In this document: one piece after another, positions 567 through 28,880 of the stretch
Layout of the letters: each line of letters opens with the position of its first letter
How positions within the stretch are numbered: the first letter of the stretch is position 1
DNA from: a virus
DNA: 40,598 bases
Direction: 5' to 3' (one strand)
Virus record (IMG/VR): IMGVR_UViG_3300024262_000082
Coordinates: 1-40,598 of that record
Notes under the pieces: generated by a model
The model's database searches: none
What the model saw: only the letters and a program-made list of their open reading frames with translations
Told to the model about the DNA's origin: nothing
Program-made: the position numbers and the translations under genes

Positions 567-2987
567 TTATTCCCACAATTTATTAGGTATATTCCTTGCA
601 TATAACTTTCTATTAGCATTATCCGCTAATATTAAGTGATTTGCATCCTTAACTTTATTCTGATTTAATAAATTAGATTTAGAAACATCAGGAACAACAG
701 TATCTAATATTCTAATATTTGTTAATTTTATATTAGACGTTTTTACAATAATATTGTTAGTGTGTGCAAATGATTCGTTAGGAACATCACTGTAAATTTT
801 ACTATAAAGTAATTTAAGTTTAGGATCTGAGATATTTTTTATAATATCAATATTTTTAATAGGTTTATAACCTCTTGATGTGTAGTAAGTTATACCAGTT
901 AAATCAGTAGATTCTAATGTTATTGATTGATAATCAGAAGTGAAATATTTAATATAATAATCACAGTCTCGTTTAAAAATAGTTAAATCTGCTGTTTTCT
1001 GTCTATTATCAAAGTTTACTAATAATCCATACCATAAATTAGTTGTGATTCCACTACCAACTAATGGAAGAGTATAATTATTGTCGTTTATTGTTAATCC
1101 AAATTCATTATTTGCAAACCATACTTTATAACCTAAATTGTTAGTTTCATTGTAGTTATTTATAAATTCATAATATGTATTATTTGGTATATTATAAGAA
1201 TTAAAAACTTCATCAGTAATAATATTATTTTCATTAAATAAATTATTGAAATTTAACCAACATAAGAAAGAACGGTTATCACTTTCTTCGAGTACCTTAT
1301 CTGTAACAGAGTATGTTATTGCAGATACTTGAGTTTGTATATTAGTAAAATCATAATACCCATCAGCGATATTTATACCATAATTAAAAATTTGCTTATT
1401 TTTAATTTCAACTAAAGGATTAATATCAACCCTGAATACTTCATGTGTTAATGGCTTCATTTGTAGTTTATTTGCAATTTTATCTTCTTCTTGTCTATTT
1501 TCAAATCCAAATATTTCATCAATTGTAGTATTATTTGTAAGAGGTTCAAGTAATTCTTTTGCTCTTTGGTTAATGATTTGTTCATTAGCAAGTTGTTCGT
1601 ATTTTTCGAGAATAACTTTATAATAAATACCTTGTTGCATAACATCTCTAAAAACTTGTGAATGTTTCACTCTATAAAGTCTATTTGTTTGACAAAAATA
1701 AATGACATCTTTTTGAGCAGGTCTTTTTTCAATACCAAACGCTTTTTTAAATACATCTTTTAATACATGAATTTCAAAAGTGTCGAATAAATCTAAACTA
1801 AATTCATTAATTTGAACTTGATTGTCAGGAAATTGGTTGTCAGGTACAATTACTTTTATTTTTTGAACATCTGTCATATTAAATAGCTGATATTCGTGTA
1901 AATACATATCTATACCTTTTTCATCTGGATCGGTTCGATAATATTCAATTTCCCAACCTAACATATCGTTAGTTTGATTTGCTAACATATTATAAAATCC
2001 AGTAATTTTTCCTGTTTCATATGGTTTCCAAAGTCCTGCCTGATTTGATGGATCATTATTTTCTTGTTCTAACATACCATAAACATCTTTAACCAAGTAA
2101 CAACTTAAATATTGTGTATAAAAATCTCTATTATAATTATTATAATTTCCAGTAATATCAGAAGCACAACCCCAAATATTTGTTATACCACTTAAACAAA
2201 TTCCACTTCCATCATCATCAGGTGAATCAGTACCATTTACAAATCGAGTAGCACAATCTTCCTTTAAACCATATCTATTTGTCTTTAAGTAATTTGCACT
2301 TACATTTTGAAAATCTCCTGATAATGTTATATCAAAAACTTTAGATATTCCAGAACCAGATTCAACTAAATATTCGATATGTGCAAATCTAACTTCATTT
2401 AATTTGCAAGTTGATATGTTTTCTGTTGTAAGTGGTTCCCATGGGGTGTATGTTCTTCCTCCATTTTGAGTCCATCTATATTTAATAGTTAAATTGTCAG
2501 GATTTATTGAAAATAGTTGAAAATCATCAATTCTAAATACTTTATAAATATCTTTAGGTTTTAGTATAATAGATGTTCCACCTGAAATAACAAAAACGTC
2601 ATTTGTTTCTTCAATGTTATATGTTCCATTAATTACTATATCACTAATCGTTATTGTGGGAGTTGATGTTCTAACCTCATCTACTCTATAATAATAAATT
2701 CTGATATAGAAGTCGTTTTCATCACAAAATTCTCTTGTGATACCAGATATTGGTATTTTATCACTCCAAGTTACTCCAGTTTTTGAATTTGAATAATCAA
2801 AGTACTTAGCAAAATAGTGTGATGTACTATCACCTTGAATTTTATCATTAAATGATGTTATCGTTTTAATTCCTTTCGTTACTGTTGATTCAAAAATCTT
2901 AATATCTCTTTGTTGTGTTGATGGCTCAGATCCTATCCAGTTCATTGTGAAAGTACCATCATATCTTTTATTTAGAACATAATCCAT
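567..2987 (-). CDS. large virion structural protein, 806 aa (tail/baseplate-like)
   Basis: This long protein is beta-rich and low in cysteine. The first ~250 residues contain repeated short strands and Gly/Ser/Thr-Gly-Ile turns, like phage fibre and baseplate proteins. A central part (~390-520) is helical and mixed, with a lysine-rich segment around KDVFKKAFGIEKRP. The last ~200 residues, with alternating aromatic strands such as FLCWLNFNNLF and LWYGLLVNFD, look like a concanavalin/LamG-type beta sandwich. The start ATG at 2987 follows an AAGGAG-free AT-rich leader and a TATATA box at 3011-3021. It is divergent from two other virion genes. Exact structural role is not determinable here; baseplate or tail appendage is the best inference. 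Confidence 0.65.
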   Translation of the reverse strand: MDYVLNKRYDGTFTMNWIGSEPSTQQRDIKIFESTVTKGIKTITSFNDKIQGDSTSHYFAKYFDYSNSKTGVTWSDKIPISGITREFCDENDFYIRIYYYRVDEVRTSTPTITISDIVINGTYNIEETNDVFVISGGTSIILKPKDIYKVFRIDDFQLFSINPDNLTIKYRWTQNGGRTYTPWEPLTTENISTCKLNEVRFAHIEYLVESGSGISKVFDITLSGDFQNVSANYLKTNRYGLKEDCATRFVNGTDSPDDDGSGICLSGITNIWGCASDITGNYNNYNRDFYTQYLSCYLVKDVYGMLEQENNDPSNQAGLWKPYETGKITGFYNMLANQTNDMLGWEIEYYRTDPDEKGIDMYLHEYQLFNMTDVQKIKVIVPDNQFPDNQVQINEFSLDLFDTFEIHVLKDVFKKAFGIEKRPAQKDVIYFCQTNRLYRVKHSQVFRDVMQQGIYYKVILEKYEQLANEQIINQRAKELLEPLTNNTTIDEIFGFENRQEEDKIANKLQMKPLTHEVFRVDINPLVEIKNKQIFNYGINIADGYYDFTNIQTQVSAITYSVTDKVLEESDNRSFLCWLNFNNLFNENNIITDEVFNSYNIPNNTYYEFINNYNETNNLGYKVWFANNEFGLTINDNNYTLPLVGSGITTNLWYGLLVNFDNRQKTADLTIFKRDCDYYIKYFTSDYQSITLESTDLTGITYYTSRGYKPIKNIDIIKNISDPKLKLLYSKIYSDVPNESFAHTNNIIVKTSNIKLTNIRILDTVVPDVSKSNLLNQNKVKDANHLILADNANRKLYARNIPNKLWE

Positions 2988-3010
2988 TTATCTTTAAGGA
3001 GTATTTTAGT

Positions 3011-3021
3011 TTATATATTAA
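3011..3021 (-). promoter_or_regulatory. TTAATATATAA promoter box (minus strand)
   Basis: This forms an inverted pair with the box at 3039-3050 in the 80-base divergent region between the genes starting at 2987 and 3068. It reads TTAATATATAA on the minus strand, about 24 bases before the start at 2987. Confidence 0.5.
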
Positions 3022-3038
3022 TTTTTAGATTATACAAA

Positions 3039-3050
3039 TTAATATATAAA
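3039..3050 (+). promoter_or_regulatory. TTAATATATAAA promoter box (plus strand)
   Basis: Same box as at 3011-3021 but on the plus strand, 17 bases before the ATG at 3068 and followed by an A-rich leader. Confidence 0.5.
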
Positions 3051-3067
3051 GAAAAACAAAAGAAAAC

Positions 3068-3574
3068 ATGAAAATAGTACCAAATGATCTTTTAAAACCA
3101 ACCGAAAAATGTATAAAGGTGTGGAATTGTTCATTCATTGCTACTGAAGGACCAAATATTTTAGGTAAGATTAGTTTAGATGATTTGGAAATACCATTTA
3201 CATCTACTTATAGAGCAAAGGTAACACTTGCTGGTGGTGCAGAAAATACTTTATTATCCTATGGTAATATAGGTGAAAAACTTACATATTTGATGATTAA
3301 AGTTACTTATGATTCTGAAAATGATCCATATTATATTTATCAAAAAGAAAATTATAATATAACATATTGGCTTTCAGGTTCTACAACTGGTGTTACATAT
3401 CCTATTGCTGAAAATGTTTATCCTATTGGTAGATTAATGGTGCTTTCAGGTTCAGATACAAATAAAGTTCCAAGAATTTTTGTAAGCAATCCAAATCAAT
3501 ATCCTGTAACATTGGATATGATTATGGCAAATTATGTGTCTGAGACTATAAGTGTTTCTGGAACAACTTCTTAA
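3068..3574 (+). CDS. virion-like protein, 168 aa, paralogue of the next gene's N-terminus
   Basis: The whole protein aligns by eye with the first ~155 residues of the next gene. Both open MxIxPNxLLxPTEKxIKxW followed by SFI and EGPN, both contain a NITYxxSG segment, and both end the domain with KVPRIFxxNPNxxxVxLD. It is beta-rich and small with no membrane segment. It lies in tandem with its paralogue 14 bases apart, and both share the upstream TATATA box. The composition (many Thr/Ser/Gly turns) fits a fibre, decoration or baseplate protein; the precise role is unknown. Confidence 0.7.
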   Translation: MKIVPNDLLKPTEKCIKVWNCSFIATEGPNILGKISLDDLEIPFTSTYRAKVTLAGGAENTLLSYGNIGEKLTYLMIKVTYDSENDPYYIYQKENYNITYWLSGSTTGVTYPIAENVYPIGRLMVLSGSDTNKVPRIFVSNPNQYPVTLDMIMANYVSETISVSGTTS

Positions 3575-3588
3575 AATAACTTTTATGT

Positions 3589-5388
3589 ATGCAGATAAGA
3601 CCAAACAGACTTTTAACGCCTACTGAAAAGAGTATAAAACCTTGGGAAAGAAGTTTTATATCTGTCGAAGGACCTAATAATATTGATGAATTATTATTAA
3701 ATGATATTGCTATTGGTTATTCTGATTTTTATTTATCAAGACAAGTTTTATTTTCAAATACAAAAAATATACCATTACAGTTTAATGGACTTGAGGAAGA
3801 ATTAATATTTCTTATGGTTCGTGTTAGAAAGGATTCTGAAGATAATCCACATTTGGATTATGATATAACTAGAAATATAACATATTATTTCTCAGGGTTT
3901 ACTGGTGATACACAGGCAATAAACACATTTTTCATACAAACTGGTTCTTATGAAAATAAAGTACCAAGAATATTTTTTAATAATCCTAATGAATTTAATG
4001 TTGTTTTAGATGTTTTTGGAGCAATCTTAGAAAAAACAACTACATCGATATCAAATACTGGTGTAACAGTGTGTAGTAATTTGTGGTTAGAGAGTGTAAT
4101 ATCAGATCAAGTACCAGATAATATTTCATCTATAACAGGTTCAACAGCATTAAAGACTATTTTATTTAATATTGATGGTTATGTAGATGATGATTATGTG
4201 GATGATTATTTTGAAGATGATATATGTTCAACAATACCATATACTGGTATTACAAATATAGTGAAAGATTTAGATAATTTAAGAATAACAATAACTGGTG
4301 ATACACAAGTTTATATACTTAATTTTTTAACAGAATTTGATTTACATCAAGCATATTCTAGAATAAAATGGGTTATGTCAGATCCTGATAATAGATTTCT
4401 AGATGTTGATTATGTTTATGAGAGTAATAGTGGTATCACGGGGATAGATACACAAGTTCCAATAATATATTATTATCCTAGTGGAACAACAACACCTACT
4501 GGCTCAACATTGGGAGTATTAACAAAAAATCAAGTTCTTGAACATTTTATTAGTGGTGTTACTGATTATTGGGATAATAATTTAGATATAACTGGTGCTA
4601 CATCATATTTAACTAAATTAGGCAGTCCAGTTACATTAACAGGTACCTCCGAAGAAGGTATTTATGAAATAGAATATACATATACAGATAATGCGAATAA
4701 TTTTACGGGTGCAACTATTGGAAATATTTTAGTTGATGCAACACTACCAATTATACACTATAAGTATGGTATTGTGAGTTCTGGTACAACAGGAAGTACA
4801 TTGACAGGAAGTACAATAGATTATTCAGGTTCTACAATTACTGAAGTAGTTGAAATATTTTCAGGCTTTACAATGGTTGCATCAGGTAGAACACCAACTG
4901 GAATAACAAGTAATGATATAATGAATTATATCATTGATAGTGTTTATGATAATGTAGATACAACAATATCAAAATATGATATTGATTTTTATAAAGTGGA
5001 TAATCGAAGAAATTTAATAGATGTTATAGCAGATCCTTATTATACAAAAACTTATAATAGTTTAACAATACCACCATTATCAGGTGCAGGTCAAACTTTA
5101 ATTTTTACTGGTGGCACTAATCTATATTGGACATCAGGTGATACTGCTAATATAAGATATAATTCTACACACAATTTTAATGTAATAGTTGATAATTATA
5201 ATTATACAACTGGTATATTTTCAACTACAATTACAAGTGGTATAACAGGTTCAGGCTCAACATATTCAAATTGGATAGTTGATGAACAGAGTGGCAATAA
5301 AATATTAGATTTTTGTATTAAATTAACCCTTAGTGATTTTTGTGGTAATATTACAACTGATTATCTTATATTAAGAACTAAAAGTTAA
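3589..5388 (+). CDS. virion fibre-like protein, 599 aa, with duplicated N-terminal domain
   Basis: Residues 1-155 form the same domain as the preceding 168-residue protein. The rest is a long beta-rich extension with many STTGSTLTGST-like Thr/Ser/Gly segments, and stretches resembling Ig- or cadherin-like repeats (for example the EGIYEIEYTYTDNANN region, followed by D-A-T-LP, typical of Ig-like adhesion repeats). This fits a multi-domain tail fibre or adhesin built on a shared N-terminal attachment domain. It is followed by a homing endonuclease and then by a glycosyltransferase with an autotransporter-heptosyltransferase-like half, so its Ser/Thr-rich segments are plausible glycosylation substrates (inference). 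Confidence 0.7.
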   Translation: MQIRPNRLLTPTEKSIKPWERSFISVEGPNNIDELLLNDIAIGYSDFYLSRQVLFSNTKNIPLQFNGLEEELIFLMVRVRKDSEDNPHLDYDITRNITYYFSGFTGDTQAINTFFIQTGSYENKVPRIFFNNPNEFNVVLDVFGAILEKTTTSISNTGVTVCSNLWLESVISDQVPDNISSITGSTALKTILFNIDGYVDDDYVDDYFEDDICSTIPYTGITNIVKDLDNLRITITGDTQVYILNFLTEFDLHQAYSRIKWVMSDPDNRFLDVDYVYESNSGITGIDTQVPIIYYYPSGTTTPTGSTLGVLTKNQVLEHFISGVTDYWDNNLDITGATSYLTKLGSPVTLTGTSEEGIYEIEYTYTDNANNFTGATIGNILVDATLPIIHYKYGIVSSGTTGSTLTGSTIDYSGSTITEVVEIFSGFTMVASGRTPTGITSNDIMNYIIDSVYDNVDTTISKYDIDFYKVDNRRNLIDVIADPYYTKTYNSLTIPPLSGAGQTLIFTGGTNLYWTSGDTANIRYNSTHNFNVIVDNYNYTTGIFSTTITSGITGSGSTYSNWIVDEQSGNKILDFCIKLTLSDFCGNITTDYLILRTKS

Positions 5389-5508: not shown

Positions 5509-6243
5509 ATGGTAATTTATAAAACAACTAATTTAATTAATGGGAAATTTTATGTTGGTCAAGATATTAAGGATAATCCCAAATATTTTGGTTCTGGCAC
5601 AGCATTAATATTGGCTATTAAAAAGTATGGTAAGAAAAATTTCAAAAAAGAAATTTTAGAATATTGTTCAAATGAAGTGTATATGGATGAAAGAGAGATT
5701 TTTTGGATTAAAAAACTTAATGCGACAAATAGAAAAATTGCATACAATATTTGTGAAGGTGGTAGAACATATCGAGCAATGAAAGGTGAAAATCATCCTA
5801 TGTTTGGTAAAAAACATTCAGAAGAAACAAAGAAGATAATAAGGGAAAAAAGAAAACTTCAGAAAATGTCTGAAGAGCAAAAAGAAATACTTAGACAAAA
5901 ATGGTTAGGTGATGAAAATCCAGGTAAAAATAAATCAAAAGAAACAATAGCAAAAATTTCAAAAAGTAAAAAAGGTAAATATAAGGGTGAAGAGAACCCT
6001 ATGTTTGGTAGAACTCACTCAGAAGAAACCAAAGAACATTGGAGTAAAATTAGAAAAGGTAAAAATGTTGGAACATCTAATCCTGATGCGACAAGATATT
6101 TTATTGAATCACCAGATGGTGAAGAGTTGATTTTTGAAACTAGGAAAAGTGCAATGAAAAAACTTGGTTGTAGTTTAGGTTTTTTTCAAACAAAACATTT
6201 TAAAGGGTATAAATTAATAAAAAAAGAAAATATTAATAGATGA
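5509..6243 (+). CDS. GIY-YIG homing endonuclease with NUMOD3 repeats
   Basis: The N-terminal ~90 residues are a GIY-YIG nuclease domain: the opening MVIYKTTNLINGKFYVGQ carries the paired Tyr motif (I-Y at 3-4, Y-V-G at 15-17), with a conserved Glu in the MDEREIFWIKKLN helix. Two NUMOD3 DNA-binding motifs follow (NHPMFGKKHSEETK near residue 95 and NPMFGRTHSEETK near 164), then a C-terminal helix-turn-helix-like segment (SAMKKLGCS). At 244 residues it matches the I-TevI/Seg size class. Its TGA overlaps the ATG of the glycosyltransferase (ATGA). It is a selfish element probably mobilising into this intergenic site, and no intron is evident. Confidence 0.93.
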   Translation: MVIYKTTNLINGKFYVGQDIKDNPKYFGSGTALILAIKKYGKKNFKKEILEYCSNEVYMDEREIFWIKKLNATNRKIAYNICEGGRTYRAMKGENHPMFGKKHSEETKKIIREKRKLQKMSEEQKEILRQKWLGDENPGKNKSKETIAKISKSKKGKYKGEENPMFGRTHSEETKEHWSKIRKGKNVGTSNPDATRYFIESPDGEELIFETRKSAMKKLGCSLGFFQTKHFKGYKLIKKENINR

Positions 6244-8693
6244 AACGGTTATTACTTTTAGTCCCCCACATGTCCACTGGAGGGTTACCCCAAGTAGCTT
6301 TAAAAAGAGTTGAACTTTTAATGGACGATTACGAAGTTTATGTAATGGAATATAGACAATTAGCTTGGAAATATGTTGTTCAAAGAAATAAAATAATTGA
6401 ATTACTTGGTGACAATTTTATATCATTAGGTCGTCACGAAACAGAAGAGAAAAGAGATAAATTTGAATATTATTTTAAATCGGTTAAGGCTGATGTGGTT
6501 CATATGGAAGAAATTCCAGAAATGTTTATGAGAGAAGAACATGCGAATATCGTTTATTCTAAAGATAGAAAATATAAACTATTTGAAACTACACATACTT
6601 CAACTTTTAATGTTGATAATAAAAAATATTTTCCAGATAAATTTTTATTTGTTTCGGAACATTCTAAAGAAGAATATTCTAAATATAATATACCTTCAGA
6701 AGTTATTAATTATCCAATTGATAAAATAGAAAGACAAAGATATAAATATATTAAAGAATTAGAATTGGATCCTGAATATTTTCATGTATTAAATGTTGGA
6801 TTATTTACTCAAGGTAAAAATCAAGGTCATATTTTTAAAATGGCTAAAGAATTGCAAAATTATAAAATTCAATTTCATTTTATTGGTAATCAAGCTGACA
6901 ACTTTAAAAATTATTGGGGTCCGTTAAATAATTTAGGGTTAGATAATTGTAGAGTGTGGGGAGAACGAGATGATGTTGAAAAATTTTATAATGCTTGTGA
7001 TTTATTATTATTTCCTTCGGTATTAGAATTAAATCCTCTTGTTATAAAAGAAGCATTAACATATCAGATGCCAATTCTTATGTATAGATTGCCAGTATTA
7101 AAAGATACTTATGATAATGATTATCTAATAACTTATTTAACAGATAATTATGAAAGTGATGTTTTATTATTATTAGAAAAATTTAATATTAGAAAAAAAT
7201 ATACAGATTCTGAAGGGTTTAAACAATTGATGATTAATAATTATGGTGAGGTTGTAAATTCTCCAAAAGAAATTGATTATAAAATAGATTTTCTTGATGG
7301 TGCTAAAGTTGAATTGTATGGTAATAGTGATGAAATGTTTGATATTGAATTTATAAATAAAGATAAAAATGTTGTTGAATATTCTACACAACTTTCACCA
7401 AATCTTTGGTCAAAAACTAATAATAAATATTATATTAATTGGAAAATTGTTATAAAGAAGGATGGTAAAGTTGTTGTTAATCATGATTTTAATTTAGGAG
7501 GTAAAAATGTTTATATTCAATTTGATTCTAAAGCACTTGGTGATTCATTAGCATTTATACCATATGTTGAAGAATTTAGAAAGAAACATAATTGTACTAT
7601 ATTTTGTTCAACATTTTGGAATCATTTGTATGAGAAAGAATATCCTGAGATTATTTTTATAAATCCAGGTGAACACCCTGGTATTAAATCTGTTGAAAGA
7701 GGACTAAATAAAGAAATGTATGCTAAGTATTCTATTGGTTGGTATCAACCTTGGAAACAAAACCAGAATCCTAATGATTATAAAAAAATACCATTACAAC
7801 AAACTGCATCGGATATATTAGGTTTAGATTTTAAAGAAATTGTACCTAAAATAAGTCTGGAAAAAAGAGAAAGAACTATTGAAGAAAAATATGTTTGTAT
7901 TGCTCAATATTCAACGGCAAATGCAAAACATTGGCATTATCCATATAAGAATAGTCATTTAGGATGGCAAATGTTAGTTGATTGGTTAAATGCTCAAGGT
8001 TATAAAGTAGTGGTGATTAGTAAACAGCCGTCAACATTAGAAAATATTATAAATCATACAGGCATTTCAATTGAAGAATGTATAAATGATATAAATTATT
8101 GTGAGTTTTTTATTGGTGTATCATCAGGTTTAGCTTGGCTTTCTTGGGTATTAGGTAAAAAGGTAGTGATGATATCTGGATTCTCAGATCCTATTTGTGA
8201 ATTTAAATCTAATAATATAAGAATACAGAATAAAAATGTGTGTAATTCATGTTTTAATAGACACGAATTTGATAAAGGTACTTGGAATTGGTGTCCTGAT
8301 CATAAAGATACTGAAAGACAATTTGAATGTACATTAAATATTACACCTGAGATGGTGATAGATGAAATGAAGAAAAATAATTTAGTTAATGAAAAAATTC
8401 AAGTTGATTTTAGTAAATATTTTGTTAAATCATACGATATTAATTTAGAATCTGAAAAAATAAAATATGAATTAAAAGATAATAAAATAATGTTATCTTA
8501 TAAAGAAGGTACACTACCTGAATTGAATGTTGATATTTTTGATGTTTATACGAATGTAGTTTATCAAACGCTAAATGATGTGAAGTTGAGCGATAAATAT
8601 ATTGTTTGGGGTCAACCCAGCATAGATTTAAAAGATAAGAGTTTAGGATTAAGATTTTATAAGGAAAAAACAATTTTAAAAATAACTGTATAG
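6240..8693 (+). CDS. two-domain glycosyltransferase: GT4-like plus autotransporter-heptosyltransferase-like
   Basis: Residues 1-310 form a GT-B glycosyltransferase of GT4 type: LVPHMSTGGLPQVAL at the N-terminus, VGLFTQGKNQGH for the donor-site lysine loop, and an E-x7-E motif in ELNPLVIKE. From ~340 it changes to a second enzyme resembling the autotransporter strand-loop-strand O-heptosyltransferases (TibC/BAHT): a beta accessory segment, DSKALGDSLAFIPYVEEFRK, CSTFWNHLYEKEYPE, then a four-cysteine finger at C668, C671, C685 and C697 (CNSCF...WNWCP...FEC), known to bind iron in TibC. The last ~100 residues are an extra beta-rich domain. It lies directly behind virion genes and may O-glycosylate virion proteins (inference). 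Confidence 0.85.
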   Translation: MKRLLLLVPHMSTGGLPQVALKRVELLMDDYEVYVMEYRQLAWKYVVQRNKIIELLGDNFISLGRHETEEKRDKFEYYFKSVKADVVHMEEIPEMFMREEHANIVYSKDRKYKLFETTHTSTFNVDNKKYFPDKFLFVSEHSKEEYSKYNIPSEVINYPIDKIERQRYKYIKELELDPEYFHVLNVGLFTQGKNQGHIFKMAKELQNYKIQFHFIGNQADNFKNYWGPLNNLGLDNCRVWGERDDVEKFYNACDLLLFPSVLELNPLVIKEALTYQMPILMYRLPVLKDTYDNDYLITYLTDNYESDVLLLLEKFNIRKKYTDSEGFKQLMINNYGEVVNSPKEIDYKIDFLDGAKVELYGNSDEMFDIEFINKDKNVVEYSTQLSPNLWSKTNNKYYINWKIVIKKDGKVVVNHDFNLGGKNVYIQFDSKALGDSLAFIPYVEEFRKKHNCTIFCSTFWNHLYEKEYPEIIFINPGEHPGIKSVERGLNKEMYAKYSIGWYQPWKQNQNPNDYKKIPLQQTASDILGLDFKEIVPKISLEKRERTIEEKYVCIAQYSTANAKHWHYPYKNSHLGWQMLVDWLNAQGYKVVVISKQPSTLENIINHTGISIEECINDINYCEFFIGVSSGLAWLSWVLGKKVVMISGFSDPICEFKSNNIRIQNKNVCNSCFNRHEFDKGTWNWCPDHKDTERQFECTLNITPEMVIDEMKKNNLVNEKIQVDFSKYFVKSYDINLESEKIKYELKDNKIMLSYKEGTLPELNVDIFDVYTNVVYQTLNDVKLSDKYIVWGQPSIDLKDKSLGLRFYKEKTILKITV

Positions 8694-10105: not shown

Positions 10106-11008
10106 TTATCTTCTTCCTCCTGTATTTTTGGATGGTGTTGTACTTCTTGTAGGTGTACTTCTTGTAGGTGTATAACTTTTTCTTGGCGCAGAATAAGTAT
10201 TTGGTGAGTTATGTTGTCGAGATGGTGGAGTATAACTTTTCACATTACCTCTAGGTGTTGGTTTAGTATAAATCTTTGGTTGAGTATAATTTTTTGTAGG
10301 TTGAGTATATCTTTCCCTTGTTGGTTGAGTTCTTGTTGGTTGAGTTCTTGTTGGTTGAGTTCTTGTTGGTTGAGTATAATTTTTTGTAGGTTGAGTATAT
10401 CTTTCCCTTGTTGGTTGAGTTCTTGTTGGTTGAGTATATCTTTCCCTTGGGGTTTCGTATTTTTTCTGAGGTTGAGTATATCTTTCTCTTACGTTAGTTT
10501 GATTGACCTTCTCAGGAGTTCTTACAACTCTTTCAGGAGACTTTATTCTATCGGGTGATGTTCTGCTATATCTTGGTAGATTACTACCACCAGAATGATT
10601 AATTCTTGGTCCGTAATATCTATCTCTACGAGTATAATTATTCCAATCATTATGATACCAATTCCAATGATTATTCCAATGGTGATGATACCAATAAGGT
10701 GAGTAGTAAGGTGAATACCAAGAATAGTAATATGGCGAATAGTAAGGTGTATAATACCAAGGATATCCGTAATAAAAGTTTACTGACCAAGGTGAGTAAT
10801 CATAATAGAAAGGGTAATAATTCACATTCATTCCAAAATTAATATAGAATGTTGGTTCTTCATTAATAACGTCAATAGGTGTTGCTTCTACTGTTTCGAC
10901 ATAATTAATTTCGTCACTTGGTCTGTAATAAACATCGTCTTGTATATATGATGTGGTTGAGCAAGATGCTAATAATATAAAAATAAATAAGTATAGAATT
11001 TTTTTCAT
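10106..11008 (-). CDS. phage-encoded lipoprotein with aromatic-rich and TQPT-repeat regions, 300 aa
   Basis: MKKILYLFIFILLASC is a textbook lipoprotein signal peptide with lipobox LASC (Cys16), so the mature protein should be lipidated and held in a host membrane. Residues ~50-125 are extremely rich in Tyr, Trp, His and Pro (PYYSPYYYSWYSPYYSPYW). The C-terminal half is basic and repetitive, built of RERYTQPT, NYTQPT and TQPTR units, and ends TGGRR. Tandem DNA repeats underlie this. It follows a transglycosylase on the same strand and could be an accessory lysis or superinfection-exclusion protein, or an envelope-spanning binder of peptidoglycan; none of these is shown. Composition suggests a largely disordered protein. 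Confidence 0.8.
   Translation of the reverse strand: MKKILYLFIFILLASCSTTSYIQDDVYYRPSDEINYVETVEATPIDVINEEPTFYINFGMNVNYYPFYYDYSPWSVNFYYGYPWYYTPYYSPYYYSWYSPYYSPYWYHHHWNNHWNWYHNDWNNYTRRDRYYGPRINHSGGSNLPRYSRTSPDRIKSPERVVRTPEKVNQTNVRERYTQPQKKYETPRERYTQPTRTQPTRERYTQPTKNYTQPTRTQPTRTQPTRTQPTRERYTQPTKNYTQPKIYTKPTPRGNVKSYTPPSRQHNSPNTYSAPRKSYTPTRSTPTRSTTPSKNTGGRR
10276..10435. repeat. direct and tandem repeats coding for TQPT units
   Basis: A 70-base segment at 10276-10345 is repeated identically at 10366-10435, 90 bases apart. Inside lie 15-base tandem units of GGTTGAGTTCTTGTT type that encode TQPTR on the minus strand. They are in frame, so copy-number change would lengthen or shorten the lipoprotein without breaking it. 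Confidence 0.85.
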
Positions 11009-12040: not shown

Positions 12041-13216
12041 ATGAGTTTTAAGAAAATTAAAGTTATAACCCCCGAAAATGTAAGAGTTCCAGAAAATGGA
12101 TATGTTTATTTAGGTTATGGATATTCAACAACATATGAAGATACTGCACCTTGGATAAAAAAATCTGATGGTTCTATTATTTTGATAAGTGGTGGAACGG
12201 GAGGAGGTGGTGGAACCTTATATTGGACATTAGAATCAGGATATTTAAAGCCTAATAATGTTAATTATAAAGTGAGTGTTGGGAATACTTCAGCAACACA
12301 AGTTTTAAATGTCGGGGGTGGTATTAATTTAAGTAATACTACAACAAATACATCAGGTTCTATTCGTTGGAATGGTTCTGATTTTCAAGGTTATACTGGC
12401 TCAAGATGGGTATCTTTAACCGCAAGTGGTGACACTTCAGGTACTACTGGGTCAGAGTATTGGCAACCAGTTGCACAAGGTATTCAATATCCTGATGGTA
12501 AGGTATATGTTGGTAGTAGTTTTACAATAAGTGAAAATAATGATATATTGAATGTTCAAGGTGGTGTTACTTTAAGTAATAGTACTAAGACCAATGCTGG
12601 CACAATCCAATATAACACATCAAGCACTGATATTGAAGGTTATGTTGGTGGTGAATGGAAATCTTTAACTGCTGGTGATCACACAGCAAATGAAAACGAA
12701 TTTATTTATAATGATGCCTCTGATAATTTAGTTGGTACATCAAAATTAATGTATAATCCTGGTACGACAGGTGTTCAAGGTATTGGTATAGATACTTCTA
12801 CATCATATTCAACTTTTGAAGTAAATGGTTCGTTTGGTACAAAATCTAATGTTGTTACATCATCAATAACATTAGATGAGAATTATCACACAATAATATG
12901 TTATAATACTACGGAAATAGTTATTACTTTGCCTGAAATAAGTGATTCTGTAAGTAGAGAATATGTAATATGTAGATATAATACTGGTAATGTATTAGTA
13001 AGAATATCACAAGCTGCTGAGCCTTATTATACTGAGTATATAAATTTTTATGGTAATTCTGCTTTAGGTACTCTCGATTTTAGCACATCATTACCTGCGG
13101 GGGCATCTGACAAATTAATATTATATTCAGTAACTGTAAGAGCAATACCTCAGTTTCCAAGTCTTACTGATGCTAGATGGGTTGTTACAAATTTTGCATC
13201 AGCTTCAACACCATAA
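12041..13216 (+). CDS. tail-fibre-like virion protein, 391 aa
   Basis: Residues 1-55 hold an N-terminal segment with a Gly-rich linker (SGGTGGGGG). Two internal repeats follow, LNVGGGINLSNTT... (~90-130) and LNVQGGVTLSNST... (~170-215). Each runs from a LNVxGGxxLSN strand through an I-R/Q-W/Y-N segment to GY(T/V)GxxWxSLTAxGD, a pattern seen in phage tail fibres. The C-terminal ~130 residues form a beta-rich head domain beginning SITLDENYHTIICYN, like receptor-binding or collar domains. It is alone on the plus strand behind a strong late-type box, and no chaperone gene was seen next to it. Confidence 0.8.
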   Translation: MSFKKIKVITPENVRVPENGYVYLGYGYSTTYEDTAPWIKKSDGSIILISGGTGGGGGTLYWTLESGYLKPNNVNYKVSVGNTSATQVLNVGGGINLSNTTTNTSGSIRWNGSDFQGYTGSRWVSLTASGDTSGTTGSEYWQPVAQGIQYPDGKVYVGSSFTISENNDILNVQGGVTLSNSTKTNAGTIQYNTSSTDIEGYVGGEWKSLTAGDHTANENEFIYNDASDNLVGTSKLMYNPGTTGVQGIGIDTSTSYSTFEVNGSFGTKSNVVTSSITLDENYHTIICYNTTEIVITLPEISDSVSREYVICRYNTGNVLVRISQAAEPYYTEYINFYGNSALGTLDFSTSLPAGASDKLILYSVTVRAIPQFPSLTDARWVVTNFASASTP

Positions 13217-13221
13217 AGATA

Positions 13222-13608
13222 TTATTTAAGTAATTTAATAAGATTTTCAGTTAGAAAGGCGATAAGTTTTTTGTCGTCTTTTATTTTCACATTAGGTATA
13301 TTTCTAATGATAGAGAATTTGTCATTTCCTTCAATAGTTAATTTTGATATATGTTCAAATAATTCTTTATCTTGTTTGTAATAATCTTTCATCTGTTCAA
13401 CAAATTGTCTTAAATCAACACCCATTTTGTTGTTGTATTTAATACATTGTAATTCAGTATTATCTTCTTTTTCAATTAAAATATACCAAAGTTTCTTTTT
13501 TGAAACTTTAATATTTTCTAAAAAGTTATATGCTTTTTGTGCCTTAGTGTTTTTTGGAAACTTTGCAACTTTACCATATAAATTAACTTTCTTCTCTGCC
13601 ATAAACAT
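13222..13608 (-). CDS. hypothetical protein, paralogue of the C-terminal domain at 31592-32164
   Basis: The last ~100 residues match by eye the C-terminal half of the acidic protein at 31592: a helix-strand segment (LWYILIEKEDNTELQCIKYN versus YFLRKKGDNLHVVKYN), then LTIEGNDKFSIIRNI versus IKIKGNDRFSVVENI, then a terminal helix ending in I-x-K-L-L. This copy lacks the acidic N-terminal region and the tag. ATG 13608 gives MFMAEKK; ATG 13602 (MAEKK) is equally good. The role is unknown; two copies near virion genes suggest a structural or head-associated domain. Confidence 0.72.
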   Translation of the reverse strand: MFMAEKKVNLYGKVAKFPKNTKAQKAYNFLENIKVSKKKLWYILIEKEDNTELQCIKYNNKMGVDLRQFVEQMKDYYKQDKELFEHISKLTIEGNDKFSIIRNIPNVKIKDDKKLIAFLTENLIKLLK

Positions 13609-18348: not shown

Positions 18349-19317
18349 ATGCAAGAGTGTTTTTTAATAACCACATATTGTGATACTGAAGAAAAAAGTG
18401 ATGTTTTAAGAGATACAATAAAATCCTTAGATAAGTCTAACCTAAAAATGTGTGTACACGCACATTATCCATTACCTGTTGATATTCAAAAGAATGTGGA
18501 TTATTATATCTACGATTCTTCAAATCCTATTATACCATTCGGTACAAGAAGTATAATAGTGTGTAGAAAGATGAATAATTATCAGATGAATATTTTAAAA
18601 CGAGATTATGGTTATACTGTTGTTTCACAATGGAGACAAGGTTTGTTGTTTTTAGATAAATTAGGTTATGATAAAGTGCATGTATTAAATTATGATACTA
18701 TAGTTACAGACAATCTTATAGAGAATACTAAGAATAATTATTCCGCTACCTTCTATTTAAAAAATACTGAAGAAATAAATTTATTATTTGGTACGATTTG
18801 TCCATCTGATTATCTAGATGTTATAAAATCTATGACAATGGAAGATTATATTTTTATGAATGAGTATTGGTATGCCGAGAAGTATTTTTATGATAAATTT
18901 AAAGGCAACAATCTTATGTTAGAAGATAAATTGTCAGATATATTGAGACATCAACCATATGAACTTGATGTTTATAAACTTGATGGTTATAATATACATT
19001 TTGGTGAAAGAATTAATTGGATTGATGGTGAGAAAATATATACAGATAAATACACTTTTATGTTTTATAATGTTAATAATGAATTAGATTTTAAAATATT
19101 TAAAGGTTATGAACTTTATAAGCATGAAATTATAAATGATTTTAGTGTAATAGATACTGACATCAATACGGAAGATGTTAAACAAAGTTTTGGATATTGG
19201 AGTGGTAATGAATTTATTAAAGGTAATAGTTTTATTAAAGTTTTAATAAATGATAAAATGTTAGATGAGAACATCACATCTAATTTTTGTATTAGTGCAA
19301 TAGAATATAATGTGTAA
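18349..19317 (+). CDS. glycosyltransferase-like protein, copy 1 of 3
   Basis: It opens QECFLITTYCDTEEKSDVL, then VHAHYPLPVDIQ, and a VLNYDTIV segment that probably replaces the DxD metal site of GT-A enzymes. The same frame of motifs (ITxYCD, H-A/S-H, DIQxKV, Y(T/A)V, NYD) appears in the genes at 20058 and 21098, so this is a triplicated family. The last ~80 residues are a separate beta-rich segment. It leads the glycan operon 82 bases after a divergent gene and ends one base before the radical SAM gene. Glycosyl transfer is inferred from fold-like features and context, and the donor sugar is unknown. Confidence 0.75.
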   Translation: MQECFLITTYCDTEEKSDVLRDTIKSLDKSNLKMCVHAHYPLPVDIQKNVDYYIYDSSNPIIPFGTRSIIVCRKMNNYQMNILKRDYGYTVVSQWRQGLLFLDKLGYDKVHVLNYDTIVTDNLIENTKNNYSATFYLKNTEEINLLFGTICPSDYLDVIKSMTMEDYIFMNEYWYAEKYFYDKFKGNNLMLEDKLSDILRHQPYELDVYKLDGYNIHFGERINWIDGEKIYTDKYTFMFYNVNNELDFKIFKGYELYKHEIINDFSVIDTDINTEDVKQSFGYWSGNEFIKGNSFIKVLINDKMLDENITSNFCISAIEYNV

Positions 19318-20043
19318 ATGGAAAAGTTAAATATATTTCAAATAGAACTAACAAGTAGATGTAATGCATCCTGTTCATATTGTCCTCACAGTTCACTTAC
19401 TCGAAAAAAAGAAGATATGTCTAAAGAGACTTTTAATCAGGCATTAACTTTAATTAATAGAAATAACTTGTGGAAAAATATGGATAACTATGTAGTTGAA
19501 CTACATTCTTTTGGTGAAGCATTTCTATTAGGTGAAAAGTTATTTTATTTTTTAGATAGAATGAAGGAGGAAAATATACCTTGGGGATTAAGTACAAATG
19601 GTATTTTATTAGGACATAACAAAGAGTTTGATAAGAAATTGTTATCTTATAATGGAGTATTAGAAATTTCTGTTGAAAGTATAAATTCTAAAGTTACAAT
19701 AGAAGATAAGTATCAGAAAATAAATGAATATTTGGAATTACATATAGAGTCAAAATCAAAATTGATAAACATATTAATATCATATGGTAATGTGGATTTT
19801 TCAAAAATTACTGGATGTGCAGGAGTATCAAAATATGAGTTGCATACTTGGGGTGAAAACGATAAACCTTACACTTCTTGTAAATTTTTACAGGATAATT
19901 TTTTCACTATTCAAAGTAATGGAAATATTGTTAGTTGTTGTGTTGATGCAGATGGTGAGACAAATTTTGGCACAGTTTTTAATCCAACATTTGAACATAA
20001 TAAAAGATGGCGAAAATGTAATACTTGTCTTGGTGGATTATAA
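19318..20043 (+). CDS. radical SAM enzyme with SPASM-like C-terminus
   Basis: C15-x3-C19-x2-C22 in LTSRCNASCSYC binds the radical SAM [4Fe-4S] cluster. GEAFLL and STNGILL match later radical SAM strands. The C-terminus has a SPASM-like cysteine set: SCKFLQDNFFTIQSNG, then VSCCVD, then CNTC, likely binding one more cluster. Such proteins modify peptides or sugars; in glycan clusters they act on nucleotide sugars or carrier proteins. It is short at 241 residues. It sits between glycosyltransferase copies 1 and 2, starting one base after copy 1. Confidence 0.88.
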   Translation: MEKLNIFQIELTSRCNASCSYCPHSSLTRKKEDMSKETFNQALTLINRNNLWKNMDNYVVELHSFGEAFLLGEKLFYFLDRMKEENIPWGLSTNGILLGHNKEFDKKLLSYNGVLEISVESINSKVTIEDKYQKINEYLELHIESKSKLINILISYGNVDFSKITGCAGVSKYELHTWGENDKPYTSCKFLQDNFFTIQSNGNIVSCCVDADGETNFGTVFNPTFEHNKRWRKCNTCLGGL

Positions 20044-20057
20044 AAATAAGAAATATA

Positions 20058-21101
20058 ATGAAATACGATAAGAGTTGTTTTTTAATAACCGCATATTGTG
20101 ATAATTCGGAAAAAGTTTCAGTTATGTCAGATTGTATTAATAATCTGAGAGAAATAACTAATAATGAAATGGATATTTTTATACATTCTCATCATTCCGT
20201 TGATATTGATATTCAGAATAAAGTTAAGTCGGTTATTTTTGATAAATCTAATCCAGTGCTAAAATATCCAACTAAAGGTTATAATTTTTGGCGAAAATAT
20301 AAAAATTATACTATGAGTGTGGTGACTGATGATTATGGGTATGCTGTATTATCGCAATGGAAAAATGGTATGAATTATTTAAATAATCTTGGTTATAAGA
20401 CATTCTTTTTAATTAATTATGATGTGTTTATAGATAAGATTATGTTTGAAAAATCTTATGAGTATTCAATTAATAATGATGGTGTAATATATTATTGGAG
20501 TGATGAAATGATAAATGCTGCATATAATATCTTCACTTCTAAGACAATAGATTTAATCAACAATATAACATTAGAGGATTACTTGAAAATTATGAGTGAT
20601 TTATTTGAGATTTACATAAAGAGACAAGTTGTTAATAATCCTAATTATTCTTTTAAGCATGTGTATCATAAAGAATATAAAGATAATTTTTATTCAGCAA
20701 TGGATATAAATAGTACTAAACGATACATAGATCGTGATTTACCAGTAAGTGTAATAACAGATCCATATGTATTTTTTAATCATCCATATCCTGAATCTAT
20801 TGAAGATAATAGTAAATTAGTTTGTCAGTATCATATAGCATCAAAAATGTTAAATGGTAGTGATGAAAATATTTTAACATTTCTGTTTTTTAGTGTTAGA
20901 AAAGAAATGACACTTAAAATACAAATTGATGATATAGTAGTTTATAACGATTTAATAGATGTTGATTTTTACTTAGAAAGTGATTACCGATATAGTGATT
21001 TTAAAGATGGTAAAATTGATGTTAAGATATATGTTGATAATGATGAGATAGATTCTCGGTATATTAACTTATTAAAACAAAATTGTAGAATAACCACATG
21101 A
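20058..21101 (+). CDS. glycosyltransferase-like protein, copy 2 of 3
   Basis: It opens MKYDKSCFLITAYCDNSEKV and carries the family motifs IHSHHSVDIDIQNKV, YGYAVLSQWKNG and INYDVFI. ATG 20058 is chosen because it places the ITAYCD motif at the same distance as in the other copies; an in-frame ATG at 20025 would overlap the radical SAM gene. The C-terminal ~90 residues are beta-rich (MTLKIQIDDIVVYNDLIDVD), matching similar tails on copies 1 and 3. It overlaps copy 3 by four bases (ATGA). Confidence 0.75.
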   Translation: MKYDKSCFLITAYCDNSEKVSVMSDCINNLREITNNEMDIFIHSHHSVDIDIQNKVKSVIFDKSNPVLKYPTKGYNFWRKYKNYTMSVVTDDYGYAVLSQWKNGMNYLNNLGYKTFFLINYDVFIDKIMFEKSYEYSINNDGVIYYWSDEMINAAYNIFTSKTIDLINNITLEDYLKIMSDLFEIYIKRQVVNNPNYSFKHVYHKEYKDNFYSAMDINSTKRYIDRDLPVSVITDPYVFFNHPYPESIEDNSKLVCQYHIASKMLNGSDENILTFLFFSVRKEMTLKIQIDDIVVYNDLIDVDFYLESDYRYSDFKDGKIDVKIYVDNDEIDSRYINLLKQNCRITT

Positions 21102-22084
21102 AAGAATGTTTTGTTATAACAACATATTGTGATACACAAAAGAAAATTGATGTTCTTAATTCAACAATTGATAATATTAAGAAGTTTGGTAAAGATATTT
21201 TAATCCACGCACATTTTCCTCTATCTGAAGATATACAGAATAAAGTAAATCATTATATTAGTTCTGAGAACTTTATTATTGATAATGAATCAAAGGTGTC
21301 ATTTTTTTGGACATTTAAGTATAATTACAAAATGTATAACTACAAAACGAATTATAATTATACAGTACTTAAACAATATAATGAAATAGCATCATATTTA
21401 TTTTCAATAGGTTATGATGTTTTGCATATTTTAAATTATGATAGTAATATTACATCTGAACTATATGAAATATCAAAAAAATATTGTCAGGATAAATCAG
21501 TTTTTTATCAGAATTTTCTTATAAAAGAGAAATATGTAACAGCAACCTGGTTTTCATTAAATAAAAAGGATAGAGATTTTTTTATAAATATGACATCAAT
21601 GGAGCAATATGTTAAATCATCAGATTATACAATAGAGCATTATCTTGGAAATTCTATTAGTAAAATTGATGCTGAGTTTGTCGAATTAGAAAACTATAAT
21701 TACAAATTGTTATATAAAAATGAGATATCTTTTGATGGTGTTCATTATCGGGACATATACGAAGGTGTTAGTATGGCATCAAGAGATTTTGAGTTCTTCT
21801 TTAAGAAGGATGGATATAGCATTTTTGGAGGATATTTTAATAAGACATTATCTTTCTTATTTCATACCATAACAAAAAGATTATATGTTGAAATTCAAGT
21901 TAGAGATAATATATTCAATATAATTATTGATAATGAGATGTTTTTTATGGATACTGGTATTAAAATTGAAGGTATTAAAAATGAGGAAGTTAATATAAAA
22001 ATTAATGATGTTGTTTTAGATGATGTTTTAGTAGATAGAATGCTTAAAAATAAAATAGAATTAATAAATAATGATAAATGGTGA
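21098..22084 (+). CDS. glycosyltransferase-like protein, copy 3 of 3
   Basis: It opens MKECFVITTYCDTQKKIDVL, nearly the same as copy 1, followed by IHAHFPLSEDIQNKVNHYI and ILNYDSNI. It diverges in the middle (YNYKMYNYKTNYNYTV) and so may use another acceptor or donor. The C-terminal ~80 residues form the same sort of beta-rich accessory segment (RLYVEIQVRDNIFNIIID). It is translationally coupled on both sides: ATGA with copy 2 and a 14-base overlap with the dehydratase gene. Confidence 0.74.
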   Translation: MKECFVITTYCDTQKKIDVLNSTIDNIKKFGKDILIHAHFPLSEDIQNKVNHYISSENFIIDNESKVSFFWTFKYNYKMYNYKTNYNYTVLKQYNEIASYLFSIGYDVLHILNYDSNITSELYEISKKYCQDKSVFYQNFLIKEKYVTATWFSLNKKDRDFFINMTSMEQYVKSSDYTIEHYLGNSISKIDAEFVELENYNYKLLYKNEISFDGVHYRDIYEGVSMASRDFEFFFKKDGYSIFGGYFNKTLSFLFHTITKRLYVEIQVRDNIFNIIIDNEMFFMDTGIKIEGIKNEEVNIKINDVVLDDVLVDRMLKNKIELINNDKW

Positions 22085-23024
22085 GATAGAGAATAAAAAG
22101 ATATTCATAACTGGTGGTGCTGGTTTTTTGGGTAAACAATTGGTTAAAAGATTTTATGATAAGAATGAAATTACTGTATATTCAAGAGATGAAGCAAAAC
22201 ACTATTACTTAGGTAAAGAATTTCCAGATGTTAATTGTGTTATTGGTGATGTTAGAAATTTAGATTTGATGTTAAGAGCATCAAAGGGACATGATATTGG
22301 TATATTTACTGCAAGTTTAAAGCAAATTGGTGCCGTAGATCAAAATTATGAAGAAGGAGTTAGGGTTATTGTTGACGGTGCAATAAATTCAAGACGAGTG
22401 GCTGAAGAAAATGATATGGATGCCGCTTGTTTTATTTCATCAGATAAATCAAGAGCCGCCACGACACTTTATGGTTCAATGAAATTTGTTGGTGGTGAGT
22501 TATTTATTGTGAATTCACATAAAACTAAAACAAATTTATCATCAGTTATATATGGTAATGTTTTTAATTCAACTGGTTCAGTTATTCCGTTAATTTGGGA
22601 TAGTATAAAGAAAGGATATCCTTTAACTTTATATTCTAAAGAAATGACACGATTTATGTTAGATATCAATGATGCTGTTGATACGGTAATTTCAGCACTC
22701 CAAGTGGATGGGTTTAATGTTATACCTAATTTACAAAGTTTCTTGGTATATGATCTTTTTGAAATATATAAAGATAAATTTGGATTACAATATACTGTAG
22801 ATAAACCAAGAATATCAGAAAAAATTCATGAATTGATGATATCAAGAGAAGAATTACCAAGAACTTATTATTCAAATGATTATAATTGTTATTTTATGCA
22901 TTATAAAAATGTGTATAATAAACTATCATTTCCAAATGATGAATTTAGTAGTCGTGATTGTGTAGTAACAAAAGAAGAACTAAATGATATCTTAAAAAAG
23001 TACAATTATTATGATAACATATAA
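22071..23024 (+). CDS. nucleotide-sugar 4,6-dehydratase (PseB/FlaA1-like SDR)
   Basis: This is an extended short-chain dehydrogenase. The NAD(P) motif GGAGFLG is at 15-21, with VYSRDE ending the second strand. The segment FTASLKQIGAVDQNYEE corresponds to the AALKQVP signature of inverting UDP-GlcNAc 4,6-dehydratases. Catalytic residues are in SSDKS (123-127) and YGSMK (134-138), and MTRFMLDINDAVDTV matches the typical MTRF block. It probably makes a 4-keto-6-deoxy sugar nucleotide (UDP-HexNAc is the usual substrate) that later operon enzymes methylate and reduce. It lies between the glycosyltransferases and two methyltransferases. Confidence 0.88.
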   Translation: MINGEIENKKIFITGGAGFLGKQLVKRFYDKNEITVYSRDEAKHYYLGKEFPDVNCVIGDVRNLDLMLRASKGHDIGIFTASLKQIGAVDQNYEEGVRVIVDGAINSRRVAEENDMDAACFISSDKSRAATTLYGSMKFVGGELFIVNSHKTKTNLSSVIYGNVFNSTGSVIPLIWDSIKKGYPLTLYSKEMTRFMLDINDAVDTVISALQVDGFNVIPNLQSFLVYDLFEIYKDKFGLQYTVDKPRISEKIHELMISREELPRTYYSNDYNCYFMHYKNVYNKLSFPNDEFSSRDCVVTKEELNDILKKYNYYDNI

Positions 23025-24003
23025 TATTTTAAATTATAAAAGATTTGAATATCTATCGGATGTTGATGTTGATGTTATTATTGATGTGTATGTTGGTGAT
23101 AATTTGATTCGTAAATCTGAGGTTTCAATAAAAAGTGGAGCAAATCATTTTACAGAAATAGCTAATGATTATGACGATAAGAAGGTGGTTATTTATGATA
23201 AATCTACAAATGATAAATATTGTGAATTTATCATGAATGGTACAAATAATATACTAAATGAATTTAATGAATTTAAAGGAGTTTATTCTGATAAATTAAC
23301 AGAATTATATATTGATTTATTGAAGAAATCTCTAATTGATTATGTTGATTTAGATAATTCTGGTGATCATGATAAAATAGAGGGTAGAAACTTGTTTCCA
23401 TCTGAAAGAGCAAAAACTATGGTGGGATTAAAAGCATTGAATAATATAGAATATTGTATAAATGAGATAAATAGGTATAATATTGATGGTGATTTTATAG
23501 AAACTGGTGTTTGGCGTGGTGGTGCTACAATCTTTATGAAGGCATTATCAGATATTTTTAATATGAATAAAAAGGTTTGGGTTGCTGACGCTTTTGAGTT
23601 GGTATTTCCGTTATCTGAACATCCAGATGATGGTGATGAATGGCAACAACGAGAATGGTTGGAACTTAAGGTGACACTCGAAGAGGTTCAGAATAATTTT
23701 AGAAAATATAATGTGTTGGATGAGAATGTGAAATTTTTGAAAGGTTGGTTTAAAGATACATTGAATACACCAGAGATAGATAAAATATCATTATTGAGGT
23801 TGGATGGTGATATGTATAGTTCAACCATGCAATCATTAAATGCATTATATCCAAAATTACAGAAAGGTGGATATATTATAATCGATGATTATTTCGCTTT
23901 GGATGAATGTAAGAAAGCTGTTGAAGATTATAGAAAGGTATATAATATTACAGAAGATATTATTAGGGTTAATTGGGCTTGTGTATATTGGAAAAAAAGA
24001 TAA
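23011..24003 (+). CDS. TylF/MycF-type methyltransferase with extra N-terminal domain
   Basis: Residues ~125-330 are a macrocin-O-methyltransferase (TylF) domain: PSERAKTMVGLKALNNIEY, then GDFIETGVWRGGATIFM as the SAM site, VWVADAFE, RLDGDMYSST with acidic metal ligands, and GGYIIIDDYF. The family O-methylates deoxysugars using SAM and Mg. The first ~100 residues form an additional beta-rich domain (VDVDVIIDVYVGDNLIRKS), similar in type to the tails of the glycosyltransferases in this operon. It overlaps the dehydratase by 14 bases and is followed by a second methyltransferase after four bases. Confidence 0.87.
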   Translation: MITYNILNYKRFEYLSDVDVDVIIDVYVGDNLIRKSEVSIKSGANHFTEIANDYDDKKVVIYDKSTNDKYCEFIMNGTNNILNEFNEFKGVYSDKLTELYIDLLKKSLIDYVDLDNSGDHDKIEGRNLFPSERAKTMVGLKALNNIEYCINEINRYNIDGDFIETGVWRGGATIFMKALSDIFNMNKKVWVADAFELVFPLSEHPDDGDEWQQREWLELKVTLEEVQNNFRKYNVLDENVKFLKGWFKDTLNTPEIDKISLLRLDGDMYSSTMQSLNALYPKLQKGGYIIIDDYFALDECKKAVEDYRKVYNITEDIIRVNWACVYWKKR

Positions 24004-24007
24004 AAAT

Positions 24008-25246: not shown

Positions 25247-25250
25247 AATT

Positions 25251-28821: not shown

Positions 28822-28850
28822 TTATTTATGAATTAAAGTTATTTCAACTG

Positions 28851-28858
28851 CAAATATA
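28851..28858 (-). promoter_or_regulatory. Bacteroidota-type -7 element TATATTTG
   Basis: TATATTTG on the minus strand, 30 bases before the NAD synthetase start, matches the TAnnTTTG consensus of the Bacteroidota primary sigma factor. No clear -33 TTG was seen at the expected spacing. Confidence 0.35.
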
Positions 28859-28880
28859 CGAATAATTTTTAATAAAAAAA

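Follow-up and report, generated by a model that had tools for sequence, protein, structure and literature searches.

A TibC-like heptosyltransferase fused to a GT4 glycosyltransferase in a putative megaphage, and the association of its clade with collagen-like Gly-Thr-Ser repeats

INTRODUCTION

What might a heptosyltransferase of the type that modifies autotransporter adhesins do in a phage? The question is raised by a 40,598-base IMG/VR virus record (hereafter, the window; GC content, 24 to 29%), where a single open frame of 817 codons (positions 6240 to 8693, plus strand) combines two glycosyltransferase domains. The original prediction, made from the nucleotide sequence, described this gene as a GT4 glycosyltransferase fused to an autotransporter heptosyltransferase (BAHT) of the TibC type, located next to virion genes and possibly acting on their products. 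The window is a fragment, apparently of a megaphage genome because its proteins resemble those of megaphages: among 50,697 phage records scanned, relatives of the 599-amino-acid (aa) putative virion protein encoded at 3589 to 5388 (plus strand) were found only in uncultured phages of 635 to 735 kb. No close relatives of this protein were detected in IMG/VR, and its matches in the phage collections were to megaphages only. The closest relative of the window is LR756501 (735 kb).

RESULTS

Domain organization of the 817-aa protein. The predicted product of the 6240 to 8693 frame is a GT4 glycosyltransferase fused to a TibC-type iron-finger heptosyltransferase domain, as originally proposed. The GT4 domain (GT-B fold, retaining type) spans residues 1 to 335 (positions 6240 to 7244, plus strand). 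Residues 169 to 304 match Pfam Glycos_transf_1 (PF00534; E = 6e-13; 49 bits against a cutoff of 26.4), the EX7E motif is intact (E263 to E271), and the PHROG match is the glycosyltransferase family phrog_2170; Foldseek searches with the AlphaFold model returned matches of the BshA/WaaG/PimA class for this half. The GT4 half is 48% identical to the N terminus of the product of a separate 1,140-aa gene in LR756501, and because that gene adjoins a 738-aa GT4-BAHT gene, the window fusion unites domains that are neighbors there.

The BAHT domain, including an N-terminal beta-barrel, occupies residues 341 to 712 (positions 7260 to 8375, plus strand), which match the NCBIfam family hepto_Aah_TibC (TIGR04414) with 292.8 bits against a cutoff of 200 (E = 3e-87). 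In the PDB search, residues 345 to 708 matched TibC (4rap/4rb4; E = 1e-47), and the comparison of a structural prediction with TibC that had been suggested at the outset gave a TM-score of 0.84 by target length over 392 alignment columns (4rb4_A; Foldseek E = 1e-31), with both elements of the TibC fold, the N-terminal beta-barrel and the GT-B catalytic core, present in the model. The motifs and the four cysteines named in the original prediction were likewise found. In the alignment, D435 (positions 7542 to 7544, plus strand), within LGDSLAF, corresponds to the catalytic base D110 of TibC (PMC4358343); T559, K563, and W633 correspond to the sugar/phosphate residues T226, K230, and W305; and C668, C671, C685, and C697 (8241 to 8330, plus strand) correspond to the iron-finger residues C339, C342, C358, and C370. 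These Asp, Thr, Lys, Trp, and four-Cys positions are kept in nearly all of 58 aligned viral BAHTs, and the Lys, the Trp, and the four cysteines in every one.

The nucleotide-binding site is less uniform. R286 of TibC contacts the adenine of ADP, and its alanine mutant lost all or most of the activity (PMC4358343). The window enzyme carries a cysteine at this position (C614; 8079 to 8081, plus strand); most viral members of the clade described below have V, L, A, I, or T there and a few have R, and the position also varies among bacterial members, stand-alone ones included. Given this substitution and the variability across the clade, the nucleotide specificity of the enzyme is uncertain. In addition, P300 of TibC is replaced by S628, a substitution shared with AAH, which is less selective.

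The remaining 105 residues (713 to 817; positions 8376 to 8690, plus strand) are unclassified. The proposal of an extra C-terminal beta domain holds insofar as strands are present in the AlphaFold model, but a domain remains unproven: the pLDDT is below 50 over most of residues 729 to 817, and none of the fetched sequences contains a homolog.

BAHT genes are widespread in viral contigs. The GT4-BAHT fusion is not a one-off, and BAHT is widespread in viral contigs: one scan of IMG/VR for BAHT yielded 213 stretches, every one a relative. The domain occurs as a stand-alone protein of about 382 aa, encoded after a GT4-plus-methyltransferase gene, and as part of GT4-BAHT (about 697 aa), GT4-methyltransferase-BAHT (1,100 to 1,300 aa), and methyltransferase-BAHT proteins. 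GT4 is fused to BAHT or lies beside it in several phage lineages, which makes it plausible, as originally suggested, that one polypeptide adds the first sugar and then extends it; methyltransferase domains are likewise found. In INPHARED, BAHT was detected only in LR756501/LR756503, LR756504, and Microcystis phage Mel-JY01.

The phage BAHTs and some bacterial ones form a clade apart from TibC (branch length, 1.34; support, 100/100) that is also split from a classical BAHT whose neighbor is an autotransporter with strand-loop-strand-like repeats. The window BAHT is the sister of the LR756501 BAHT (52% identity; support, 99/93), and phylogenetic placement thus assigns the window enzyme to this distinct clade.

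The window locus corresponds to a fiber locus of LR756501. The gene directly upstream of the fusion encodes a free-standing GIY-YIG/NUMOD3 homing endonuclease (5509 to 6243, plus strand; TIGR01453, E = 5e-20; PF07460) and shares its last 4 nt with the beginning of the enzyme gene. Beyond it lie the gene for the 599-aa protein, which matches the product of an LR756501 structural gene (33%; E = 3e-44); the gene for a 168-aa paralog of its N terminus (3068 to 3574, plus strand; 38% to the same LR756501 protein; E = 1e-29); and a conserved divergent neighbor encoding an 806-aa putative virion protein (567 to 2987, minus strand; 42% over 849 columns; E = 0). Profile searches with the 168-aa and 599-aa proteins gave no family match. 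These genes (567 to 5388) correspond to the 125.0- to 129.7-kb segment of LR756501, with an identical divergent layout. In LR756501, three fiber genes of 1,664, 2,372, and 2,816 aa follow past one small gene, and the 2,816-aa product contains 2,043 repeat residues; in the window, the endonuclease and GT4-BAHT genes occupy the place of these fiber genes. Hence, the statement that the enzyme gene lies next to virion genes stands by virtue of the synteny of the 168-aa and 599-aa genes with the LR756501 fiber genes, but it does not apply to the gene directly upstream, which encodes the endonuclease.

A fiber-like protein without long repeats (391 aa; 12041 to 13216, plus strand) is encoded further downstream. 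Over its first 49 residues it matches a Gly-Thr-Ser fiber of LR756501 (695 aa; E = 8e-5) that is encoded three genes from the BAHT there, and a conserved 128-aa gene (13222 to 13608; 64%) is found near both.

The 599-aa neighbor had been considered a candidate acceptor resembling autotransporter repeats. An acceptor of the autotransporter type is not supported, as the protein shows neither a match to the strand-loop-strand family nor Gly-Thr-Ser repeats; the strand-loop-strand family is absent from all window proteins tested and from the tail fibers of the relatives. The protein retains some standing because residues 479 to 565 match a module inside the LR756501 Gly-Thr-Ser fiber (39%; E = 4e-9). 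Its Ser-plus-Thr content is 21%. With neither an autotransporter-type acceptor nor R286 in evidence, the window enzyme, although predicted to work like TibC, is not classed as an autotransporter heptosyltransferase.

The BAHT clade co-occurs with Gly-Thr-Ser repeats. The repeat that accompanies the clade is not of the autotransporter type; it is collagen-like and proline free, (Gly-[Thr/Ser]-[Thr/Ser])n. Genes beside bacterial BAHTs encode secreted proteins with GTSGTSGSSG repeats, and 44 of 97 loci, from most of the independent lineages, encode (G[ST][ST])n proteins close to BAHT. When 15 genomes of bacteria and archaea, metagenome-assembled ones among them, were scanned in full, the repeat was found in 14, beside BAHT in most, as judged by manual comparison of contig positions; Methylobacter sp. 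BlB1, for example, has one match 0.8 kb from BAHT and the rest on another contig. The bacterial repeats are mostly located within 1 kb of BAHT, in secreted proteins. Within one bacterial family (81 genomes), all seven genomes with a BAHT of this clade carry the repeat versus 2 of the 74 others, one of which has in-frame stops in its match. The only genome of that family with a classical BAHT (654 bits) lacks the repeat, and the neighboring gene there encodes an autotransporter-like protein with strand-loop-strand-type repeats.

A similar association is seen in viruses; in phages, several of the repeat proteins have tail fibers as their PHROG matches. Of 24 viral records with BAHT, 22 contain the repeat versus none of 22 BAHT-negative ones (Fisher P = 4e-11, an optimistic value as the loci share descent), with zero matches for reversed-pattern controls. 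The loci compared had been retrieved through sequence patterns. Conversely, among viral contigs of at least 70 kb that were picked by the repeat alone, using a DNA sequence pattern that also admits Cys, Arg, and Trp codons, BAHT was found in 12 of 16 (counting one 193-bit match just below the cutoff) versus 1 of 15 control contigs; the matches of the control pattern, GPxGPx, are palindromic (both strands), so that it controls for collagen-like or GC-rich viral DNA rather than for proline collagens alone. The sole BAHT-positive control contig is also the sole control with the repeat. The four repeat-bearing contigs with no detected BAHT may be fragments.

Scans of the window, including the 599-aa and 391-aa proteins, detected no Gly-Thr-Ser repeat, nor was one found in the BAHT-bearing relative LR756504. 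The acceptor would therefore be either a repeat protein encoded in another part of the genome or a protein of another kind. In the open-access literature, we found nothing that connects TibC/BAHT with phages or with Gly-Thr-Ser repeats.

Heptose-pathway genes and the donor sugar. In a large group with stand-alone BAHT, the two genes downstream encode an RfaE-II-like nucleotidyltransferase and an RfaE-I-like kinase, that is, a split HldE (TIGR02199, E = 1e-26; TIGR02198, E = 3e-26; both under the curated cutoffs). LR756501 carries a full-length heptose-7-phosphate kinase-like gene (306 bits against a cutoff of 345), with no RfaE-II or GmhA detected, and LR756504 carries a GmhA above its cutoff. 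Among phage records, genes of this kind are rare (26 and 12 records matched), and none was found in the window. A general linkage of BAHT and HldE was ruled out by cyanophages, P-SSM5 and S-SSM7 among them, that encode a split HldE without BAHT; heptose genes alone are thus not defining for the system. Five of these HldE-bearing cyanophages were checked and had neither BAHT nor Gly-Thr-Ser repeats, indicating that the repeat tracks BAHT, not the heptose genes.

DISCUSSION

Proposed function and alternatives. Taken together, these findings make it probable that the 817-aa protein serves a very large phage in the glycosylation of its virion, as part of a pathway that O-heptosylates Gly-Thr-Ser tail fibers, extends the glycan, and, in relatives, methylates it. 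The fiber-locus setting and the co-occurrence of clade and repeat agree with the glycosylation of virion proteins that was initially put forward. From gene content, domain composition, and this linkage, we infer the acceptor, the donor, the order of transfer, and any stabilizing or shielding effect on the fiber. The BAHT half would transfer heptose to Thr/Ser of the fiber repeats before assembly, with ADP-heptose or a close nucleotide-heptose as the most likely donor; the GT4 half would then add a further sugar; and methyltransferases, in the relatives, would cap the glycan. The purpose, more speculatively, could be to stabilize or shield proline-free collagen-like fibers. The acceptor of the window phage itself should lie elsewhere in its genome.

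The target could instead be a host surface glycan (lipopolysaccharide [LPS] or capsule), modified for superinfection exclusion or receptor change, with the fiber linkage reflecting the gathering of host-recognition genes. Glycosyltransferases and rfaE in a host-recognition cluster of pelagimyophages have been read in this way (PMC7029224), marine cyanophages carry their split HldE without BAHT, and the window contains a further sugar-gene cluster (18349 to 25973, plus strand) encoding three related glycosyltransferase-like proteins, a radical SAM protein, a PseB/FnlA-like 4,6-dehydratase, TylF-type and C-methyltransferases, and an epimerase-like protein. We nevertheless consider a host-glycan target unlikely: the characterized BAHT members are protein O-glycosyltransferases, in bacteria, genes of the clade adjoin those for secreted Gly-Thr-Ser proteins outside any phage context, and the cyanophages that have HldE but no BAHT also lack the repeats. 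About equally improbable is that the window phage modifies another virion protein free of Gly-Thr-Ser repeats, for which the 599-aa and 391-aa proteins would be candidates. The absence of the repeat from the window and LR756504 fits such an acceptor, as do the adjacency of the 599-aa gene and the Ser/Thr content and shared fiber module of its product; however, the window is only a 40-kb fragment, the repeat fibers of its closest relative are very large, and the resemblance of the 391-aa protein to a repeat fiber is confined to the N terminus.

Two further readings concern the enzyme itself. The loss of R286, whose mutation in TibC is so damaging (PMC4358343), could signify that the TibC-like half is a noncatalytic binding or scaffolding domain serving the GT4 half, but this is very improbable considering that D435, T559, K563, W633, and the four iron cysteines are kept, nearly throughout the viral set, and that R286 varies in bacterial stand-alone members, too. 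Glycosylation of phage DNA is a common activity of phage glycosyltransferases. It is one reading of those of aquatic jumbo phages (PMC12619734). For this enzyme, it would be highly surprising: the gene showed no association with DNA-modification genes, the family is known to act on proteins, and both viruses and bacteria encode repeat proteins along with the enzyme.

Relationship to known systems. The window enzyme resembles TibC/AAH (TIGR04414; PDB 4RAP and 4RB4) in its whole-domain fold, beta-barrel, equivalents of D110, T226, K230, and W305, and four-Cys iron finger. It differs in its low identity (about 30%), separate clade, replaced R286, GT4 fusion, and presence in a phage, and its clade is tied to Gly-Thr-Ser rather than autotransporter repeats. 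Among phages, the split HldE of cyanophages (P-SSM5 and S-SSM7) is a similar pair of kinase-like and nucleotidyltransferase-like ADP-heptose synthase (HldE/RfaE) genes, which in one large phage group here lies directly downstream of BAHT. The exosporium protein BclA and mimivirus collagens carry sugars on the side chains of Thr or other residues in Gly-X-Y repeats. Those systems employ other enzymes, whereas the one proposed here would use a TibC-type enzyme on proline-free Gly-Thr-Ser. In mycobacteriophages, phage glycosyltransferases glycosylate the C termini of capsid and tail-tube proteins (Freeman et al. 2023, as described in PMC12619734); the phage origin of the enzymes and the virion location of the glycans are shared with the system predicted here from genes, the sites differ, and the literature covered here mentions no TibC-type enzyme for that system.

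More broadly, we lean toward the existence of a previously unrecognized system of protein glycosylation, whose TibC-like iron-finger enzymes attach O-linked heptose to collagen-like Gly-Thr-Ser repeats in tail fibers of very large phages, in secreted proteins of gammaproteobacteria, and possibly in archaeal viruses; the sugars may take the place of hydroxyproline, stiffening or shielding proline-free fibers. In the isolated Microcystis phage Mel-JY01 (PP395634) and in isolated methanotrophs (Methylobacter, including Methylobacter luteus), the genes for the enzyme and the repeat protein lie close together, which makes a direct test possible; the Mel-JY01 pair consists of a GT4-BAHT protein of 1,227 aa and a repeat fiber of 1,016 aa. 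If the proposal is correct, it would assign a function to phage genes whose products have until now been interpreted as glycosyltransferases of DNA or LPS, name both the enzyme and the acceptor repeat for tail-fiber glycosylation in large aquatic phages, and widen the TibC family from pathogen adhesins to collagen-like repeats.

Repeat fiber and BAHT genes in other viral contigs

The closest relative of the window's BAHT lies in the 735-kb megaphage LR756501, whose 2,816-aa fiber (positions 102894-111344, equivalent to L373:5895-14345) has 2,043 residues in G[ST][ST] triplets, including 518 GTS and 132 GSS triplets. BAHT and Gly-Thr-Ser proteins were also identified in two virus-like contigs (L087 and L096) binned into Thermoplasmatales and Nitrosotalea MAGs; these contigs represent either archaeal viruses or binning errors. 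Another viral contig carries a divergent second BAHT copy (L041:7268-8455), with arginine at the position of TibC R286.

Sugar-related genes and other proteins

Consecutive KdsD-like, KdsA-like, RfaE-II-like, and GDP-mannose dehydratase-like genes are present in a phage contig (L104, the record of L019). In a further stretch (L076:13690-14436), phrog_8133, a PHROG family of unknown function, resembles a shortened heptose-7-phosphate kinase domain.

Within the window, 5509-6243 encodes a GIY-YIG/NUMOD3 intron-type homing endonuclease, whose coding region shares 4 nt with the beginning of the GT4-BAHT gene. A lipoprotein-like protein (10106-11008) combines RTQPT repeats with a Tyr/Trp-rich stretch, in a Bacteroidetes-like style, and proteins encoded at 27103-30308 of this phage fragment match the NAD synthetase and translation elongation factor PHROG families. 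The sugar cluster (18349-25973) comprises a radical SAM protein, a PseB/FnlA-like dehydratase, TylF and C-methyltransferases, and three related GT-like proteins that are also similar to the C terminus of a 1,140-aa GT protein of LR756501. This cluster may produce a special sugar.
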